Below are positions 4,062 to 15,384 of a stretch of DNA of 32,596 nt, piece after piece. Position 1 is the first letter of the stretch; every line of letters begins with the position of its first letter. The notes beneath the pieces are model-generated. The model was not told the origin of the DNA, searched no databases, and saw nothing but the letters and a program-made list of their open reading frames with translations. The position numbers and the translations under genes were made by a program. Source of the stretch: Alphaproteobacteria bacterium (lineage in GTDB: Bacteria > Pseudomonadota > Alphaproteobacteria > RF32 > CAG-239); the NCBI GenBank assembly GCA_016288295.1, contig JAEEYV010000048.1:1-32596 (forward strand), in the 5' to 3' direction.

Positions 4062-5072
4062 GTGATTCAAAAGAATTGGCAAGAACTTATTAAACCGACT
4101 AATTTAGAAGTTGTTCCCAGCGATGGCGGAAACAAGGCTAAAATAGTGGTAGAACCATTGGAGAGAGGCTTTGGTCTCACTCTTGGTAATGCATTGAGAC
4201 GAATCCTATTGTCTTCTTTGCAAGGCGGCGCTGTTACCGCCATTAAAATTGACGGTGTTTTGCATGAATTTTCAGTTATTCCCGGCGTTCGTGAAGATGT
4301 TACAGATATTGTGCTGAACGTTAAGTGTTTGGCGGTAGCAGTTCATAGCGAAGGATCTAAGACTATGACTTTGAAAGCTGAAGGTCCATGCGTCGTTACT
4401 GCGGCTATGATTGAAACCGGTCATGATGTTGAAATTATGAATCCGGATTTGGTTATTTGCAACCTTGATGCAGGCGCTAAAATCAATATGGAATTGTTTG
4501 TCGGCACAGGTAAAGGTTATGTTATGGCTAGTCATAATAAACCTTCAGATGCACCTATCGGCCTTATTCCGCTGGATACATTTTATTCTCCGGTTAAGAG
4601 AGTCGCTTACCGCGTTGATAATGCCCGTGTTGGTCAAGATACCGACTACGATAAACTGACTTTGGTTGTTGAAACCAACGGCGTGGTTACTCCGGAAGAT
4701 GCCGTAGCCTTTGCTGCTCGTATTTTGCAAGATCAGTTGAAGCCGTTTATTAATTTCGATGAGCCGGAAAGTGAAGTCGAAGCAGAGAAAGAAGAGTTAC
4801 CGTTCAACAAGAATTTGTTGAAGAAAGTTGAAGAACTTGAACTTTCTGTTCGTTCTGCTAACTGCTTGAAGAATGATAACATCGTTTATATCGGTGATCT
4901 GGTTCAAAAAACTGAGGCAGAAATGCTTCGTACTCCAAACTTTGGTCGTAAATCTTTGAATGAGATTAAGGAAGTGTTGGCTAAAATGGGAATCCATCTC
5001 GGTATGGAAACGCCAGGTTGGCCGCCAGAGAATATTGAGGAGTTGATTAAGAGGGTGGACGACCATTTCTAA
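4062..5072 (+). CDS. rpoA: DNA-directed RNA polymerase alpha subunit
   Basis: [35 protein letters not shown] and C-terminal [16 protein letters not shown]...[19 protein letters not shown] start. Confidence 0.97.
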
Positions 5073-5074
5073 AT

Positions 5075-5250
5075 CAAAATGCAGATAACGGCTTATCTAA
5101 AGCCAAAATTGCAAAGAGAGAAAATTCATGTACTTCTATGTACACTAAAATTTTCTCTCTTTTTATTTTGGCTTTATCTAAACCATTCTTTGCATTTTGT
5201 GAGGGCAAAAGGTGTTTTTTATTATTTGCCTCGTTCTTCGAGTTTTTTCG
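5075..5250 (+). repeat. Long-hairpin repeat element, copy 1 (hairpin 5075-5199 plus tail)
   Basis: Near-60-nt imperfect arms caaaatgcag...catgtac / gtacacta...tgcattttg; related element at 15137. Confidence 0.85.
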
Positions 5251-5269
5251 ATATCGAGGAAAAAGAGAG

Positions 5270-5370
5270 AAATTTTCTCTCTTTTTATTTTGGCTTTATC
5301 TAAACCATTCTTTGCATTTTGTGAGGGCAAAAGGTGTTTTTTATTATTTGCTTCGTTCTCCGAGTTTTTT
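5270..5370 (+). repeat. Direct duplication of right arm and tail of the hairpin element (matches 5148-5248)
   Basis: 101 bp aligned at an offset of 122 bp with two visible mismatches. Confidence 0.92.
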
Positions 5371-5806
5371 AGCGTTCTAGAATAAATGTGACCGGACCAT
5401 CGTTAGTTAAACTTACCTGCATATCGGTTTGAAAAATTCCGTTTTCGGTCGGGACGCCATGGTTTTTGAGTTGAGCGGAAAAATATTCGTATAAGGGTTT
5501 GGCTTCTTCAGGATGGGCGGCATTATCGAATCCGGGGCGGTTGCCCTGGGTACAGTCGCCGGCGAGTGTAAATTGAGAAATAACAAGGGCAGATCCCTTA
5601 ATATCTTTAACAGAAAGGTTCATTTTGCCCTGTTTGTCTTCAAATATACGTAAGTTTGAGGCTTTGCGAGCAAGATAATCAGCCTGTTGTTTTGTGTCAC
5701 CTTTGACAATGCCAATAAAAATGAGTAGCCCTTGTTTGATTTGTCCGACGAGTTCGTTGTTGACGGTAACAGAGGCATTTTTGACACGTTGCAACAGTAG
5801 TTTCAT
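5369..5806 (-). CDS. dtd: D-aminoacyl-tRNA deacylase
   Basis: MKLLLQRVKNASVTVN...GLLIFIGIVKGDT...ALVISQFTLAGDCTQGNRPGFDNAA...GVPTENGIFQTDMQVSLTNDGPVTFILE. Confidence 0.95.
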   Translation of the reverse strand: MKLLLQRVKNASVTVNNELVGQIKQGLLIFIGIVKGDTKQQADYLARKASNLRIFEDKQGKMNLSVKDIKGSALVISQFTLAGDCTQGNRPGFDNAAHPEEAKPLYEYFSAQLKNHGVPTENGIFQTDMQVSLTNDGPVTFILER

Positions 5807-8339: not shown

Positions 8340-10781
8340 TTAATAGCTATAACAAGTATCTGTTGTACTTTCTATAAATGGCGTATTATCACAAGAATTA
8401 CTATTTGTGCGACAACTTAATACTTTAACTAATTTATTTTGCGTTATATCGTACGAATAAACGGTATCTTTATACTCCGTACTGTCAGGACAATCTGTCC
8501 GATTCATATTTGAGCAAGTCCATTTTGCTCCCTCTTCAAAATTATTATCACGCGCGTGGGTATAATCGGTGAAGTAGAATACTCCATTAGGTACAATCTC
8601 CGCCACAGGATTGTTACCGCCAGGATAATCTATCCAAAATAAATCTGTAGGAACATTACTAGCACTACGGCGTTTATCCTTATTAATGATTGCACAGTAT
8701 CGCTTTGCAGATGAAGATGCATAGCGAGAATTGATTGATGAATAGGTGTTTGCAAGACCATACCAATTTCCAGCCTCGTTTCGGCTAGGTTGACCGATAA
8801 CACTCGCAGTACAGATATAGAGCTTATCGGTATCTCTCAAGTTAAAGTCACTACGATATAAAGTCATAAAATTTCCAGCTCTAGAACAACGAGCTCCAAG
8901 GTCGGTTATGCTATTGAGGGGCTGGGAAGGACAATATCCCTGATAGTTTGACATCCCATTTTGACAAGTTGCAGTTTTTATACCTTTAGCACCTCCAATA
9001 TTGGTTAGTTTACTTTCTATAACTATATCCTTAAAAGCTATAGCTCCAATTACATATAGTTCATCAGTTTTGAAATTTTTCTTTTCCCATTCATCGGATG
9101 TATAGGGAGTCCCTACACGACGAGTTGATCCTTCAATAGATATTATATTTTTTCGATTTCTTGGATTATTGAGGATTAAAAATCCTGTCAAATCGTAATT
9201 ATAACCTAAAGATCTGAAGGTAGAGGTTTTTGTTGTTGAATCTAATTTAAGTTGTATTTTTCCTTTTACATAAACATTATCAGAATTCGTATTAAATACG
9301 TTCCATGATCCAACACCACTCCAACCAGTTGGGTTGATATCATAGACGACACTATTATTCAAATCTTTTTCAGTGGTGCTGTAGTTTAAATAGACGTCGG
9401 TGTTATAAAAATTCAAAAATTTCAAGTCAATGGAGCAGTTGGTACACTTGAACTTTCCACCGTATACGTTAAACGAGCCGTCTGACTGACGAAGCTTGAT
9501 GCCCGCAAAATGAAAATTCTGATCAGATGAGCCACTATTTGATACGTTACCTGAAAAAGTCAACTGTGAAACCTCGCATTGTTCTTTGATGTCAGATATG
9601 AGAGACTTCTCTGTATTAGGAAGGTTTGATACATTATACATAAGTTCTCCATATAATGCACCGGAGATAACTTTCTTGTTTGCAAAATGCTCAAGATGAG
9701 TATACACAGAGACATTAGCAGGGACAATTACCGTTTTTTCACTATCACTAGATGATATAGCAGCGCCTGTATATAAAACGTAGGTGCTATTTTCCGTACT
9801 TTCGTTGCCATTTTTATATTTCCAGTAATTTTCAATAGCGAGTTTACAACTTTTTTGTATGCATGTGCCGTTTGACAAGGTATATCCATTTTCACATTTT
9901 GTGGGGTAATATTTTACCGTGTCACAATCGCTATGACATTCACCCCATGTGTCAGCATGTTGGACACTGTTTTTGTTTTCGTAAACGGTTCTGTCACCGC
10001 AAGAATCCATGCGGCAGGTTTCATAGAATGTTGTTTCGCCTAGAGTGCAGCGATTGCCACATAACATTCCACCTTGGCAATTACTTTGAGTTTTTGTGTA
10101 ATTACACGTTGCTGTGCATCTATAGTGATGGGAACCGTCAGAAGCGGTACAAGTTTCATATGTTGTGCAATCCTCCGGTATAATATCTGAAGGATATAAT
10201 TCGCTGTCACAAGTACATTTTTTATAGCGTTTTACGGTTTCAAAATCTCCTTCTTCCTCATTGTATTCGGAGATTGAGCAAACATCACTATATATGGTGG
10301 CATTTTCATATGTATTGACACCGTCTGTGCATACTCCAGCATCATTTTTGTAATATTTATATGCAGTGGGGCATTTACATGTAACGTATCTTCCACAGTG
10401 CAATTTTGGGGTAGATGGGGCAGGGCATTCTGTTAAAACAAAGTCAGGAGGGCAACAATGGGTGTATCTGTTGTTCATCGGGCAAAGGGTGGTAGGGGTC
10501 CAGCCGTCATCTTCACATTGGCGTACGGTTACGCATGTGCCTTTGTCGTCAATAGTCCATTCTCCAAAGCCAATATAATTCCAATAATTAGGATTAATCT
10601 GACTGCCATGATTACCACAACAAAGCTCAGCGGTATCTTCGGTAGGTGGTACTGTCGTTTCAGTACGACCTTCACATTCACCATCCGGGAGGAAACATAC
10701 ATTCGCGTTTGCGTGGTAAAACCACAATGTGCCACCGGCAATGAGCAGGATAGCAGCAAGATAAGTATACAATTTTTTCAT
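8340..10781 (-). CDS. Large Cys-rich secreted/surface protein, modular, unknown function
   Basis: Start at 10781 (MKKLYTYLAAILLIAGGTLWFY signal/anchor); the 10844 start overlaps the promoter; many CxC/CC motifs in the N-terminal half. Confidence 0.85.
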   Translation of the reverse strand: MKKLYTYLAAILLIAGGTLWFYHANANVCFLPDGECEGRTETTVPPTEDTAELCCGNHGSQINPNYWNYIGFGEWTIDDKGTCVTVRQCEDDGWTPTTLCPMNNRYTHCCPPDFVLTECPAPSTPKLHCGRYVTCKCPTAYKYYKNDAGVCTDGVNTYENATIYSDVCSISEYNEEEGDFETVKRYKKCTCDSELYPSDIIPEDCTTYETCTASDGSHHYRCTATCNYTKTQSNCQGGMLCGNRCTLGETTFYETCRMDSCGDRTVYENKNSVQHADTWGECHSDCDTVKYYPTKCENGYTLSNGTCIQKSCKLAIENYWKYKNGNESTENSTYVLYTGAAISSSDSEKTVIVPANVSVYTHLEHFANKKVISGALYGELMYNVSNLPNTEKSLISDIKEQCEVSQLTFSGNVSNSGSSDQNFHFAGIKLRQSDGSFNVYGGKFKCTNCSIDLKFLNFYNTDVYLNYSTTEKDLNNSVVYDINPTGWSGVGSWNVFNTNSDNVYVKGKIQLKLDSTTKTSTFRSLGYNYDLTGFLILNNPRNRKNIISIEGSTRRVGTPYTSDEWEKKNFKTDELYVIGAIAFKDIVIESKLTNIGGAKGIKTATCQNGMSNYQGYCPSQPLNSITDLGARCSRAGNFMTLYRSDFNLRDTDKLYICTASVIGQPSRNEAGNWYGLANTYSSINSRYASSSAKRYCAIINKDKRRSASNVPTDLFWIDYPGGNNPVAEIVPNGVFYFTDYTHARDNNFEEGAKWTCSNMNRTDCPDSTEYKDTVYSYDITQNKLVKVLSCRTNSNSCDNTPFIESTTDTCYSY

Positions 10782-10815
10782 GGTATGAGCCCTCCAGAAC
10801 GCAGTAATATAATCT

Positions 10816-10844
10816 ATTGTACGTTTTTTTGCAAAAAAAGTCAA
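10816..10844 (-). promoter_or_regulatory. Sigma70-type promoter for the Cys-rich gene
   Basis: Minus strand TTGACT - 17 bp - TACAAT. Confidence 0.75.
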
Positions 10845-11015
10845 TACTAAAACGCAGTTTATTGTGAGGTGAAAACCTTTAATATATGGTTAAAAAAAGA
10901 TAATTTTGAAGAGAAAAATATGCTTTCAAAAACAAGGAGACAAACGCTTGATTTTATTGATAAAAATCATGTTTTTTGTTTTTGTTTGGGAAAAAGTAGG
11001 AGGACATGTTTTTTA

Positions 11016-11066
11016 AAAATTCGAAGATACCTGGAATTTTTTGCCAGAGGCAAAAATAGGGATGAC
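11016..11066. repeat. Short palindromic repeat, copy A
   Basis: aaaattcgaagatacctggaattttttgccagaggcaaaaatagggatgac; identical to 11590-11640. Confidence 0.93.
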
Positions 11067-11543: not shown

Positions 11544-11589
11544 GTTTTATCGGCTCTGTTGGGGGTTATAAGAGGAAAGATTGTTTTAT

Positions 11590-11640
11590 AAAATTCGAAG
11601 ATACCTGGAATTTTTTGCCAGAGGCAAAAATAGGGATGAC
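11590..11640. repeat. Short palindromic repeat, copy B
   Basis: 51/51 identical to 11016-11066. Confidence 0.93.
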
Positions 11641-12198: not shown

Positions 12199-12662
12199 AT
12201 GATTGAAATTCGCAAAAAAGCCGTGGATAAGAAAAAGGATCTTCCAAAATGCCTTAAATTAGCCTATCTTGCCATGTATGTAATACTTGTTCTATCAGCA
12301 TTTTCGTTGGTAGGTGTGGTAGAGGCTCATATTGAAGGCAGGTTATCGTTGCCAAATTTTCGTTGGTAGGTGTGGTAGAGGCTCATATTGAAGGCAGGTT
12401 ATCGTTGCCAATGCCATTTGCAATAGTGTTGTATGTTGATTTAGCATTAATGGCTGTTCTGCCATGGGGTGACGACAATATATGTACTATGATGGTGGCC
12501 TCTATAGGTGCCTTTTGGTGGTTTGCTGTTTGGGAACTTGAGATTGGTGCTTGGAGTGATTATGTTTGTGGCGGCATTGCTGCTATTCCGGCGGTGGCGA
12601 TAATTGGCTATCTGGCCTTTCGTTTTTGGCAAGTCAATTACAAATACAAGAGAAGAGGCTAA
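12199..12662 (+). pseudogene. Small membrane-protein gene interrupted by 56-bp tandem duplication (two partial ORFs 12199-12369 and 12363-12662)
   Basis: Deleting one 56-bp copy joins MIEIRKKAVDKKK...LSAFSLVGVVEAHIEGRLSLP to MPFAIVLYVD...YKYKRRG in one 136-codon frame. Confidence 0.82.
12300..12411 (+). repeat. Perfect 56-bp tandem direct duplication (12300-12355 and 12356-12411)
   Basis: attttcgttggtaggtgtggtagaggctcatattgaaggcaggttatcgttgccaa occurs twice back to back. Confidence 0.97.
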
Positions 12663-13929: not shown

Positions 13930-15138
13930 ATGAATTATAGAACAATTGATGATTTGGGAAGTTTGCAAGGTAAAGTTGTTATGTTGCGTGCTGATCTTAA
14001 TGTGCCTATGAATGAAAATTTTGAGGTTACTAATAATGCGCGTATCGTTCGTACCGTACCGACAATTAAAGAGCTGATGAGCAAAGGGGCAAAAGTGGTT
14101 GTGGTTTCGCACTTCGGACGTCCGGAAGGTAAAGGAGATATGAAAAACTCTTTGCAACATATTGTTGCTGATTTACAAAAGGCTTTGGGCAAAAATGTGG
14201 TGTTTGTTGACGATTGTATCGGTGAAAAAGTTAGTGCCGCTGTCGCCAAAATGAGCAATGATGAAGTTTTATTGCTTGAAAATCTACGTTTTTATGACGA
14301 GGAAAAGAAGGGTAATGAAACTTTTGCCAAAGAGTTGGTTAAGCCGGCCGATGTTTATGTTTCTGACGCTTTTTCAACTGCGCACCGCGCCCATGCATCA
14401 ATGGTAGCTGCCGTAAAAGAACGCCCGGCGGCTATGGGACGTTTGATGGAAGAAGAAGTTAAGGCTCTTGAAGGAGCTTTATCAAATCCGACTCGTCCGC
14501 TGATTGCGATTGTCGGTGGTTCAAAAGTTTCAACTAAACTGGATTTGCTTAATAATTTGGTTAAAAAAGTTGATAAGTTGGTTATTTCCGGCGGTATGGC
14601 TCATACTTTTATGAAAGCTAGCGGAATTGATACCGTAAACGAGGCAAACTCTTTGGTACAAATGGATATGATTGATACAGCCAAAGAAATTATAAAGGTA
14701 GCTGAAGCTAATAATTGCGAAATCATTTTACCACAAGACGTCGTGGTTTCTAAAGAATTTAAGCCAAATGCCGAGCATAAAACAGTCGGTTTGGATGAAA
14801 TTCCGGCTGAAGGATGGAGTTTGCTTGATGTCGGTGAAAAAACAATTTCTGCAATCAATGCAAAACTTGATGAGTGCAAAACTCTGGTTTGGAACGGACC
14901 TCTCGGCGTGTTTGAGATGAAACCGTTTGACAACGCTACCAACAAAGTTGCTCAACATGCCGCCGAAATGACATCTGCTGGAAAATTGATGTCGGTAGCC
15001 GGCGGCGGTGATACAGTTTCGGCTTTGGAAAACGCAGGTGTTGCCAAGAAATTTACCTATATTTCTACTGCCGGCGGTGCGTTTTTGGAGTGGATGGAAG
15101 GGAAGGAACTTCCAGGTGTTGCGGTATTAAAAAAATAA
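13930..15138 (+). CDS. pgk: Phosphoglycerate kinase
   Basis: GKVVMLRADLNVPMN, VVSHFGRPEGK, LIAIVGGSKVSTKL, NGPLGVFEMKPF, SVAGGGDTVSALE. Confidence 0.97.
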   Translation: MNYRTIDDLGSLQGKVVMLRADLNVPMNENFEVTNNARIVRTVPTIKELMSKGAKVVVVSHFGRPEGKGDMKNSLQHIVADLQKALGKNVVFVDDCIGEKVSAAVAKMSNDEVLLLENLRFYDEEKKGNETFAKELVKPADVYVSDAFSTAHRAHASMVAAVKERPAAMGRLMEEEVKALEGALSNPTRPLIAIVGGSKVSTKLDLLNNLVKKVDKLVISGGMAHTFMKASGIDTVNEANSLVQMDMIDTAKEIIKVAEANNCEIILPQDVVVSKEFKPNAEHKTVGLDEIPAEGWSLLDVGEKTISAINAKLDECKTLVWNGPLGVFEMKPFDNATNKVAQHAAEMTSAGKLMSVAGGGDTVSALENAGVAKKFTYISTAGGAFLEWMEGKELPGVAVLKK

Positions 15139-15305
15139 AACGCGCATAACCGCTCATCTAAAGCCAAAATTTCAAAGAGGAAAAATTCATGTACTACTGG
15201 GTACACTAAAATTTTTCCTCTTTTTATTTTGACTTTATCTAAACGGTTCTTCGCGTTTTAAGGTAAAGCGTGTCATATTATTTAGGTCATTCTCCGAGTT
15301 TTTTC
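15137..15305 (+). repeat. Long-hairpin repeat element, pgk copy (hairpin 15137-15259 plus tail)
   Basis: Arms aaaacgcgcataaccgctcatctaaagcc...gtac / gtac...ggctttatc-like...cggttcttcgcgtttt; same architecture and tail (ttctccgagttttttcgg) as after rpoA. Confidence 0.85.
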
Positions 15306-15330
15306 GGCATTGAGTTTTAAGTTTGTATAA

Positions 15331-15370
15331 CAAAAAGAGACTGACCAGTAATTTGGACAGTCTCTTTTTG
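15331..15370. terminator. Bidirectional terminator between pgk and the ACP gene
   Basis: caaaaagagact...agtctctttttg, 12-bp perfect stem. Confidence 0.85.
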
Positions 15371-15384
15371 TTAATCAAGAGAAA

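Follow-up and report, generated by a model that had tools for sequence, protein, structure and literature searches.

The pgk and rpoA regions of the window

The window, i.e., the whole stretch of 32,596 nucleotides that was analysed, belongs to genome G000 (1.47-Mb assembly, contig 62) and carries complete copies of a long hairpin element behind two of its genes, pgk and rpoA. Here and below, gene function names represent our own reading of the translations and not database annotations. Behind pgk, the following features were found:

13930..15138, plus strand: pgk coding sequence, with a TAA stop codon (15136-15138) that forms the outermost pairing of the element
15136..15260, minus strand: complete copy of the hairpin element, a 125-nt imperfect palindrome
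15185..15212, minus strand: conserved tip of the pgk copy, ATTCATGTAC-N6-GTACACTAAAAT
15265..15315, minus strand: 3'-arm remnant of a type A element (second subtype)
15323..15378, strand unassigned: separate near-perfect hairpin with A/T-rich flanks

The preliminary description had placed the start of the hairpin in the pgk stop codon, and this was confirmed, as T15136, the first base of the TAA, forms the outermost pair with A15260. The covariance-model match of this copy (CM R1, 15135-15262) reaches 129.5 bits on the minus strand vs. 57.1 bits on the plus strand. Its RNA fold has a z value of -9.9 on the plus and -12.4 on the minus strand, and neither the fold of the pgk hairpin nor that of the rpoA hairpin is reached by any of 200 dinucleotide shuffles. 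On the minus strand, the conserved tip forms a stem interrupted by a single 2-nt bulge, and on the plus strand it has a 2x4 internal loop. The type A element, left here as a remnant, is complete in the related genome G012 (L157), where it lies directly behind pgk and rpoA, at stop codons. The near-perfect hairpin further downstream probably serves pgk and a convergent acyl-carrier-like gene as their native, bidirectional terminator.

The rpoA region shows a similar but longer succession of features:

4062..5072, plus strand: rpoA coding sequence
5074..5201, minus strand: hairpin element behind rpoA, complete (129.4 bits on the minus and 59.0 bits on the plus strand)
5202..5254, minus strand: 3'-arm remnant of type A, following the rpoA copy
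5256..5323, minus strand: second rpoA-type copy, truncated, 3' half
5324..5380, minus strand: second type A 3'-arm remnant

The rpoA copy starts 1 nt past the stop codon. It shares 84% identity (compared over 5071-5198) with the pgk copy, and the arms of the two differ by changes on both sides, AAAATGCA/TGCATTTT being replaced by AAAACGCG/CGCGTTTT and AGAGAGAAAA/TTTTCTCTCT by AGAGGAAAAA/TTTTTCCTCT. Both of these had been read as compensatory before, and pairing is indeed kept in each case. A covarying small tail stem had been described as well (TCGA/TCGA vs. CCGA/TCGG). It falls outside the pgk hairpin, the stretch 15265-15315 being the 3' arm of the type A element, and a third such tail in the window, near 5365, shows no pairing (CCGAGTTTTTTAGC).

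Further observations in the window include a second dispersed repeat, a small GCCAGAGGC-type hairpin (GGAATTTTTTGCCAGAGGCAAAAATAGGGATGAC) located at 792-848, 11010-11066, and 11584-11640, with two of its copies being 96% identical. Moreover, a perfect 56-bp direct duplication lies at 12300-12411, within or close to the gene for a predicted membrane protein, and the region 8340-10844 encodes a large, cysteine-rich predicted surface protein of 834 aa.

Distribution, covariation and folding strand of the family

Both copies belong to a family of dispersed, rigid and non-coding hairpins of 127-131 nt (125 nt in the pgk copy), which in G000 also comprises a tandem pair behind ppdK and a copy behind ftsH. 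Twenty-one diverse copies were used to build a covariance model. It matched 20 of 21 genomes from the same order, with up to at least 64 matches per genome, and none of 12 genomes from other families of Alphaproteobacteria; when 142 genomes were sampled across the class, matches outside the order were restricted to two families. The exact tip pattern was scanned over 84,980 species, and among the matches listed, nearly all were uncultured Alphaproteobacteria or Rhodospirillales assemblies, several of them named for deer, sheep or rumen samples. Two tip-pattern matches from other sources (L329 and L339) were confirmed by the covariance model; both lie at stop codons, the latter between groES and groEL. 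The single pattern hit in Flavobacteriaceae (L268) gave no covariance-model match and is attributed to chance, and no exact tip pattern was found in viral contigs. The element is typical of one order of uncultured, largely gut, Alphaproteobacteria. No Rfam family matched at gathering score, the scores at a loose threshold being far below it, and within a non-exhaustive search of open papers the family is apparently undescribed, with ERIC, REP and MITE papers being the only literature returned on the same phenomenon.

That the hairpin is kept by paired substitutions, as proposed from the two window copies, is borne out across the family. Among the 21 diverse copies, 31 of 43 pairs are changed on both sides and 94.5% of the cells pair. 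Double-changed cells amount to 156, compared with 45 +/- 6 in shuffled and 17-58 in slid structures; the slid control flatters the structure, as the latter was derived from the same sequences, but the margin is nonetheless very large. Even the outer stem is variable, with eight of nine pairs changing on both sides and no conserved terminal inverted repeat sequence.

Of the two strands, the one antisense to the upstream gene gives the better fold in 136 of 140 copies under RNA parameters and in 139 of 140 under DNA parameters, and due to the latter result selection probably acts on the bottom-strand hairpin. Mismatches on the gene-sense strand, scored symmetrically, are mainly C.T (701 vs. 44 A.G) and A.C (341 vs. 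144 G.T), although such fixed mismatches may represent shared ancestry and much of the asymmetry may have been inherited from one ancestor. Single changes between copies of more than 93% identity show no strand bias (50 vs. 58). Among less similar copies, changes that fit the antisense fold are in excess, both at 85-93% identity (56:34) and at 75-85% identity (163:80). Double changes dominate in the more diverged comparisons, with single Watson-Crick changes being outnumbered by double ones at 75-85% identity. Of the double changes, 38-45% are transversions. Presumably, resident copies drift neutrally and the antisense hairpin is selected in those lineages that spread.

Placement at stop codons and apparent mobility of copies

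Placement was evaluated in two independent samples of arrays, i.e., 110 arrays picked by model score (sample 1) and 83 arrays picked by the exact tip pattern in other genome records (sample 2). A same-strand gene is the nearest one upstream in 93 of 107 callable cases of sample 1 and 69 of 75 of sample 2 (87-92%). By the definition used, convergent regions are blind to orientation and the clean test is therefore the one between co-directional genes, where the ratios were 57:5 and 30:3, respectively. The fixed orientation relative to the upstream gene, noticed before at pgk, is accordingly strongly non-random genome- and order-wide. Random orientation and a lack of paired substitutions, the picture that would have spoken against a maintained hairpin, were looked for, and both the pairing and the orientation hold.

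The distance between stop codon and first element is at most 6 nt in 51 of 83 regions of sample 1 (expected 8.0, simulated maximum 20) and in 28 of 46 regions of sample 2 (expected 6.3, simulated maximum 16), the expectation being based on 20,000 simulations with every intergenic TA treated as equal. In a further group, the gene ends at -15 or -26, where TATAA or CTAG of the element itself serves as stop. Truncation of genes does not account for this placement in the cases checked, as pgk, tuf, the moxR-type ATPase gene and the gene in front of lpxD end as they do in element-free relatives. Stop codons of the TGA type are rarer at elements (2/54 vs. 24/174), in keeping with a requirement for TA. 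Symmetric TA ends occur in 52 of 125 copies, and clean cases are found at moxR and mutL; a strictly TA-duplicating insertion, which had been expected, is consequently borne out in part only and is not general.

A restriction to highly expressed genes, also considered in the preliminary description, was not supported, since the carriers are heterogeneous and include mutL, the moxR-type ATPase, a recJ-like gene and others. In addition, copies are located inside the operons groES-groEL, rpsC-rplP, fusA-tuf, and moxR-DUF58. As a separate observation, genome G016 contains a large family of paralogous genes (MKYVLFLIAILFSSQA..., with products of about 340-400 aa; L092, L099, L100, L103-L105, L107, L108, L110, L112-L116). 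Most members are preceded, at a distance of 130-410 nt, by a near-identical copy of the hairpin in the same orientation, which contrasts with the location at stop codons found elsewhere. In genome G018 (L118-L130), a short motif, GTGCCARAGRTTGAG, is repeated just behind many of the element arrays and is possibly the remnant of another repeat.

Filled and empty sites are present in relatives at the pgk, moxR and lpxD-upstream loci. Of 13 genomes of the genus, four have the element behind pgk, and the eight genomes examined from other genera of the order all lack it there. In element-free pgk loci, the stop codon is mostly followed by the terminator after a few tens of bases, and at the four filled loci a terminator is still present behind the element. 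Likewise, the siblings G018 and G060, which are 94-100% identical at most of the compared gene ends, feature different arrays at the same stop codons. The gap between the moxR-type ATPase and DUF58-type genes, for instance, holds four tandem mixed-type copies in one sibling vs. one copy in the other, and in other members of the genus it is element-free and about 16 nt long. Behind pgk, rpoA and ftsH, the same stop codon bears different subtypes in related species. Tandem mixed-type arrays arise from repeated events at one stop codon, as shown by this comparison of sequences. Owing to the filled and empty sites, the differing arrays of siblings and the copies within core operons, the element is probably mobile DNA rather than the terminator of the genes it follows.

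Copies that have remained in place are unusually conserved. Between G000 and G002, the pgk hairpin is identical at 124 of 124 nt, compared with 72.7% identity at third codon positions, and the adjoining noncoding sequence matches in 39 of 61 aligned columns. The ppdK copies are identical at 123 of 130 positions (95%) vs. 75-80% at third positions. Such conservation of orthologous copies may indicate a function in place for the host. In G012, a truncated copy shows the same degree of conservation (97.7% over 88 nt), and this points to recent arrival or conversion no less than to selection.

Interpretation and related elements

The reading moderately favoured here is that of a small, non-coding, MITE-like and apparently mobile palindrome, which is placed at the TA of stop codons, stacks there and is selected as an antisense hairpin. 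New copies would settle in a single orientation at or beside the stop-codon TA, and the stop codon would either be kept or be replaced by in-frame stops of the element. Selection would most likely act on the hairpin formed by the antisense strand (relative to the upstream gene), with its conserved G.A and G.T positions, and this hairpin may act as single-stranded DNA that the mobilising enzyme recognises. Any effect on host mRNA would be secondary.

Several other explanations were weighed against this. A cis-acting element of mRNA 3' ends, the sense hairpin of which protects the transcript or uncouples downstream genes and is selected locus by locus, appears unlikely. It would suit the fixed orientation and the contact with the stop codon, the high stability of the RNA fold on the sense strand (z -9.9 and -12.2), the higher conservation of orthologous copies relative to third codon positions and the host genes in G000 (pgk, rpoA, ppdK, ftsH), all of which are expected to be highly expressed. 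Nevertheless, the sense strand is the worse folder in nearly all copies and gains fewer compatible G.U changes with divergence; orthologues without the element, the differing sibling arrays and the heterogeneous carriers likewise disagree with it. The preliminary description had also proposed a terminator, which is not supported as the main role, given that the native terminator of pgk persists downstream, is the only one there in element-free relatives, and that copies occur inside operons. Least probable of all is that ordinary intrinsic terminators, being long A/T-flanked palindromes, simply resemble a family. Many copies do end in an A-run and a T-run and are located behind genes, but native terminators still follow downstream, the four operons named above contain copies, and the tip sequence is conserved and the length rigid. 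A terminator scan assigned no score to the main hairpin, although its short-loop rule would miss such a long stem.

An antisense small RNA transcribed from the minus strand of the element is improbable, even though it is this strand that has the constrained fold, which features tandem G.A, G.U and one bulge: a promoter-like site was not found in the region, copies reside in co-directional operons where no convergent gene could be the source of a transcript, and siblings vary in copy number and place. Very improbable, too, is quasi-palindrome correction, i.e., template switching that copies one arm to the other and generates paired changes without selection. The excess of double Watson-Crick over single changes and the share of transversions among the double changes would be compatible with it; however, conserved C.T mismatches persist with the strand bias given above, copies of more than 93% identity already show mostly single, uncorrected changes, and the placement at stop codons is left unexplained. 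A doubtful but more tenable alternative is a new mobile class, in which a single-stranded hairpin would be inserted specifically at stop codons, in a single orientation and more than once at the same genes, by unrecognised or host-encoded machinery, creating an integron-like site without an integron.

The attC sites of integrons are gene 3'-end hairpins of fixed orientation, with structure conserved over sequence and a bottom strand that folds better. The bottom-strand hairpin at the gene 3' end and its fixed orientation are found here as well, whereas core chromosomal genes as carriers, a conserved tip and tandem hairpins without genes in between set the present elements apart. The attC R box (RYYYAAC/GTTRRRY) was found in 1 of 236 element copies, and no integron integrase was detected in several carriers beyond their two tyrosine recombinases. 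These two, the only ones in each of G012, G013, G015, G032 and G060, are presumably XerC and XerD. The sequence AGTGCGTATAAC resembles a XerC half-site, for which reason a dif/Xer origin had been suspected; this was rejected, with dif-like pattern counts being overall no higher than in a reversed control.

None of the candidate mobilisers, i.e., Y1/RAYT, IS630, reverse transcriptase or tyrosine recombinase, tracks the element. An IS630-type DDE transposase (PF13358) was found in none of 15 genomes and a Y1 transposase (PF01797) is absent from the carriers G000, G002, G012, G016 and G018. Reverse transcriptases occur in 4 of 15 genomes, are absent in G060, G002, G012, G019 and G030, and have no element near their genes. 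Those with GLPIGNLTSQ/YVDD motifs in G013 and G018 (L231, L233, L234) lie away from hairpin elements.

Small palindromic repeats are common, and it has long been asked how attC-like hairpins come to be attached to the ends of genes. In the non-exhaustive search of open papers, no small palindromic repeat was found described as lying exactly at stop codons, in one orientation and repeatedly, and this placement raises the question of how insertion at the ends of genes can be so precise. A targeted insertion would mean that gene ends are recognised by something; if selection sorts the copies instead, they provide hundreds of natural experiments on stop-codon hairpins inside operons.

Among the repeats described previously, GTAG and CGTC REPs are palindromic and mostly located downstream of coding regions, the CGTC type being common in Alphaproteobacteria without a transposase (PMC3733652). 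This location is shared by the elements studied here, but REP stems measure 5-13 bp and bear a GTAG or CGTC tag, whereas the present stem is about 55 bp long and such tags occur in 4-6 of 236 copies. Rickettsia palindromic elements (RPEs) have about 100-150 bp, and QMITE2 of Coxiella is found mostly in 3' untranslated regions (PMC2229807, PMC10969869). Compared by description, the former are alike in palindrome size and the latter in its 3' untranslated location; RPEs differ in being known for insertion within genes.

The family is best filed among small palindromic mobile elements, closest to ERIC-like MITEs. ERIC (IRU, RU-1) sequences of Enterobacteria are MITE-like palindromes of 127 bp, which are TA-flanked, often located at gene 3' ends and co-transcribed (PMC2759123, PMC2229807, PMC10969869). 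Exposure of an RNase E site in ERIC reportedly depends on the ribosome, with orientation being crucial for the effect (PMC2229807, PMC10969869), and in single cases a 3'-end fusion with loss of the normal stop has been described (PMC2759123). Length, imperfect palindrome, dozens of copies, location at gene 3' ends and the occasional supply of a stop codon make this the closest kind. Nevertheless, ERIC sequences have a recognisable sequence and TA ends, whereas the outer ends vary here but stay complementary, and in the present alphaproteobacterial hosts most copies touch the stop codon, and tandem stacking occurs.
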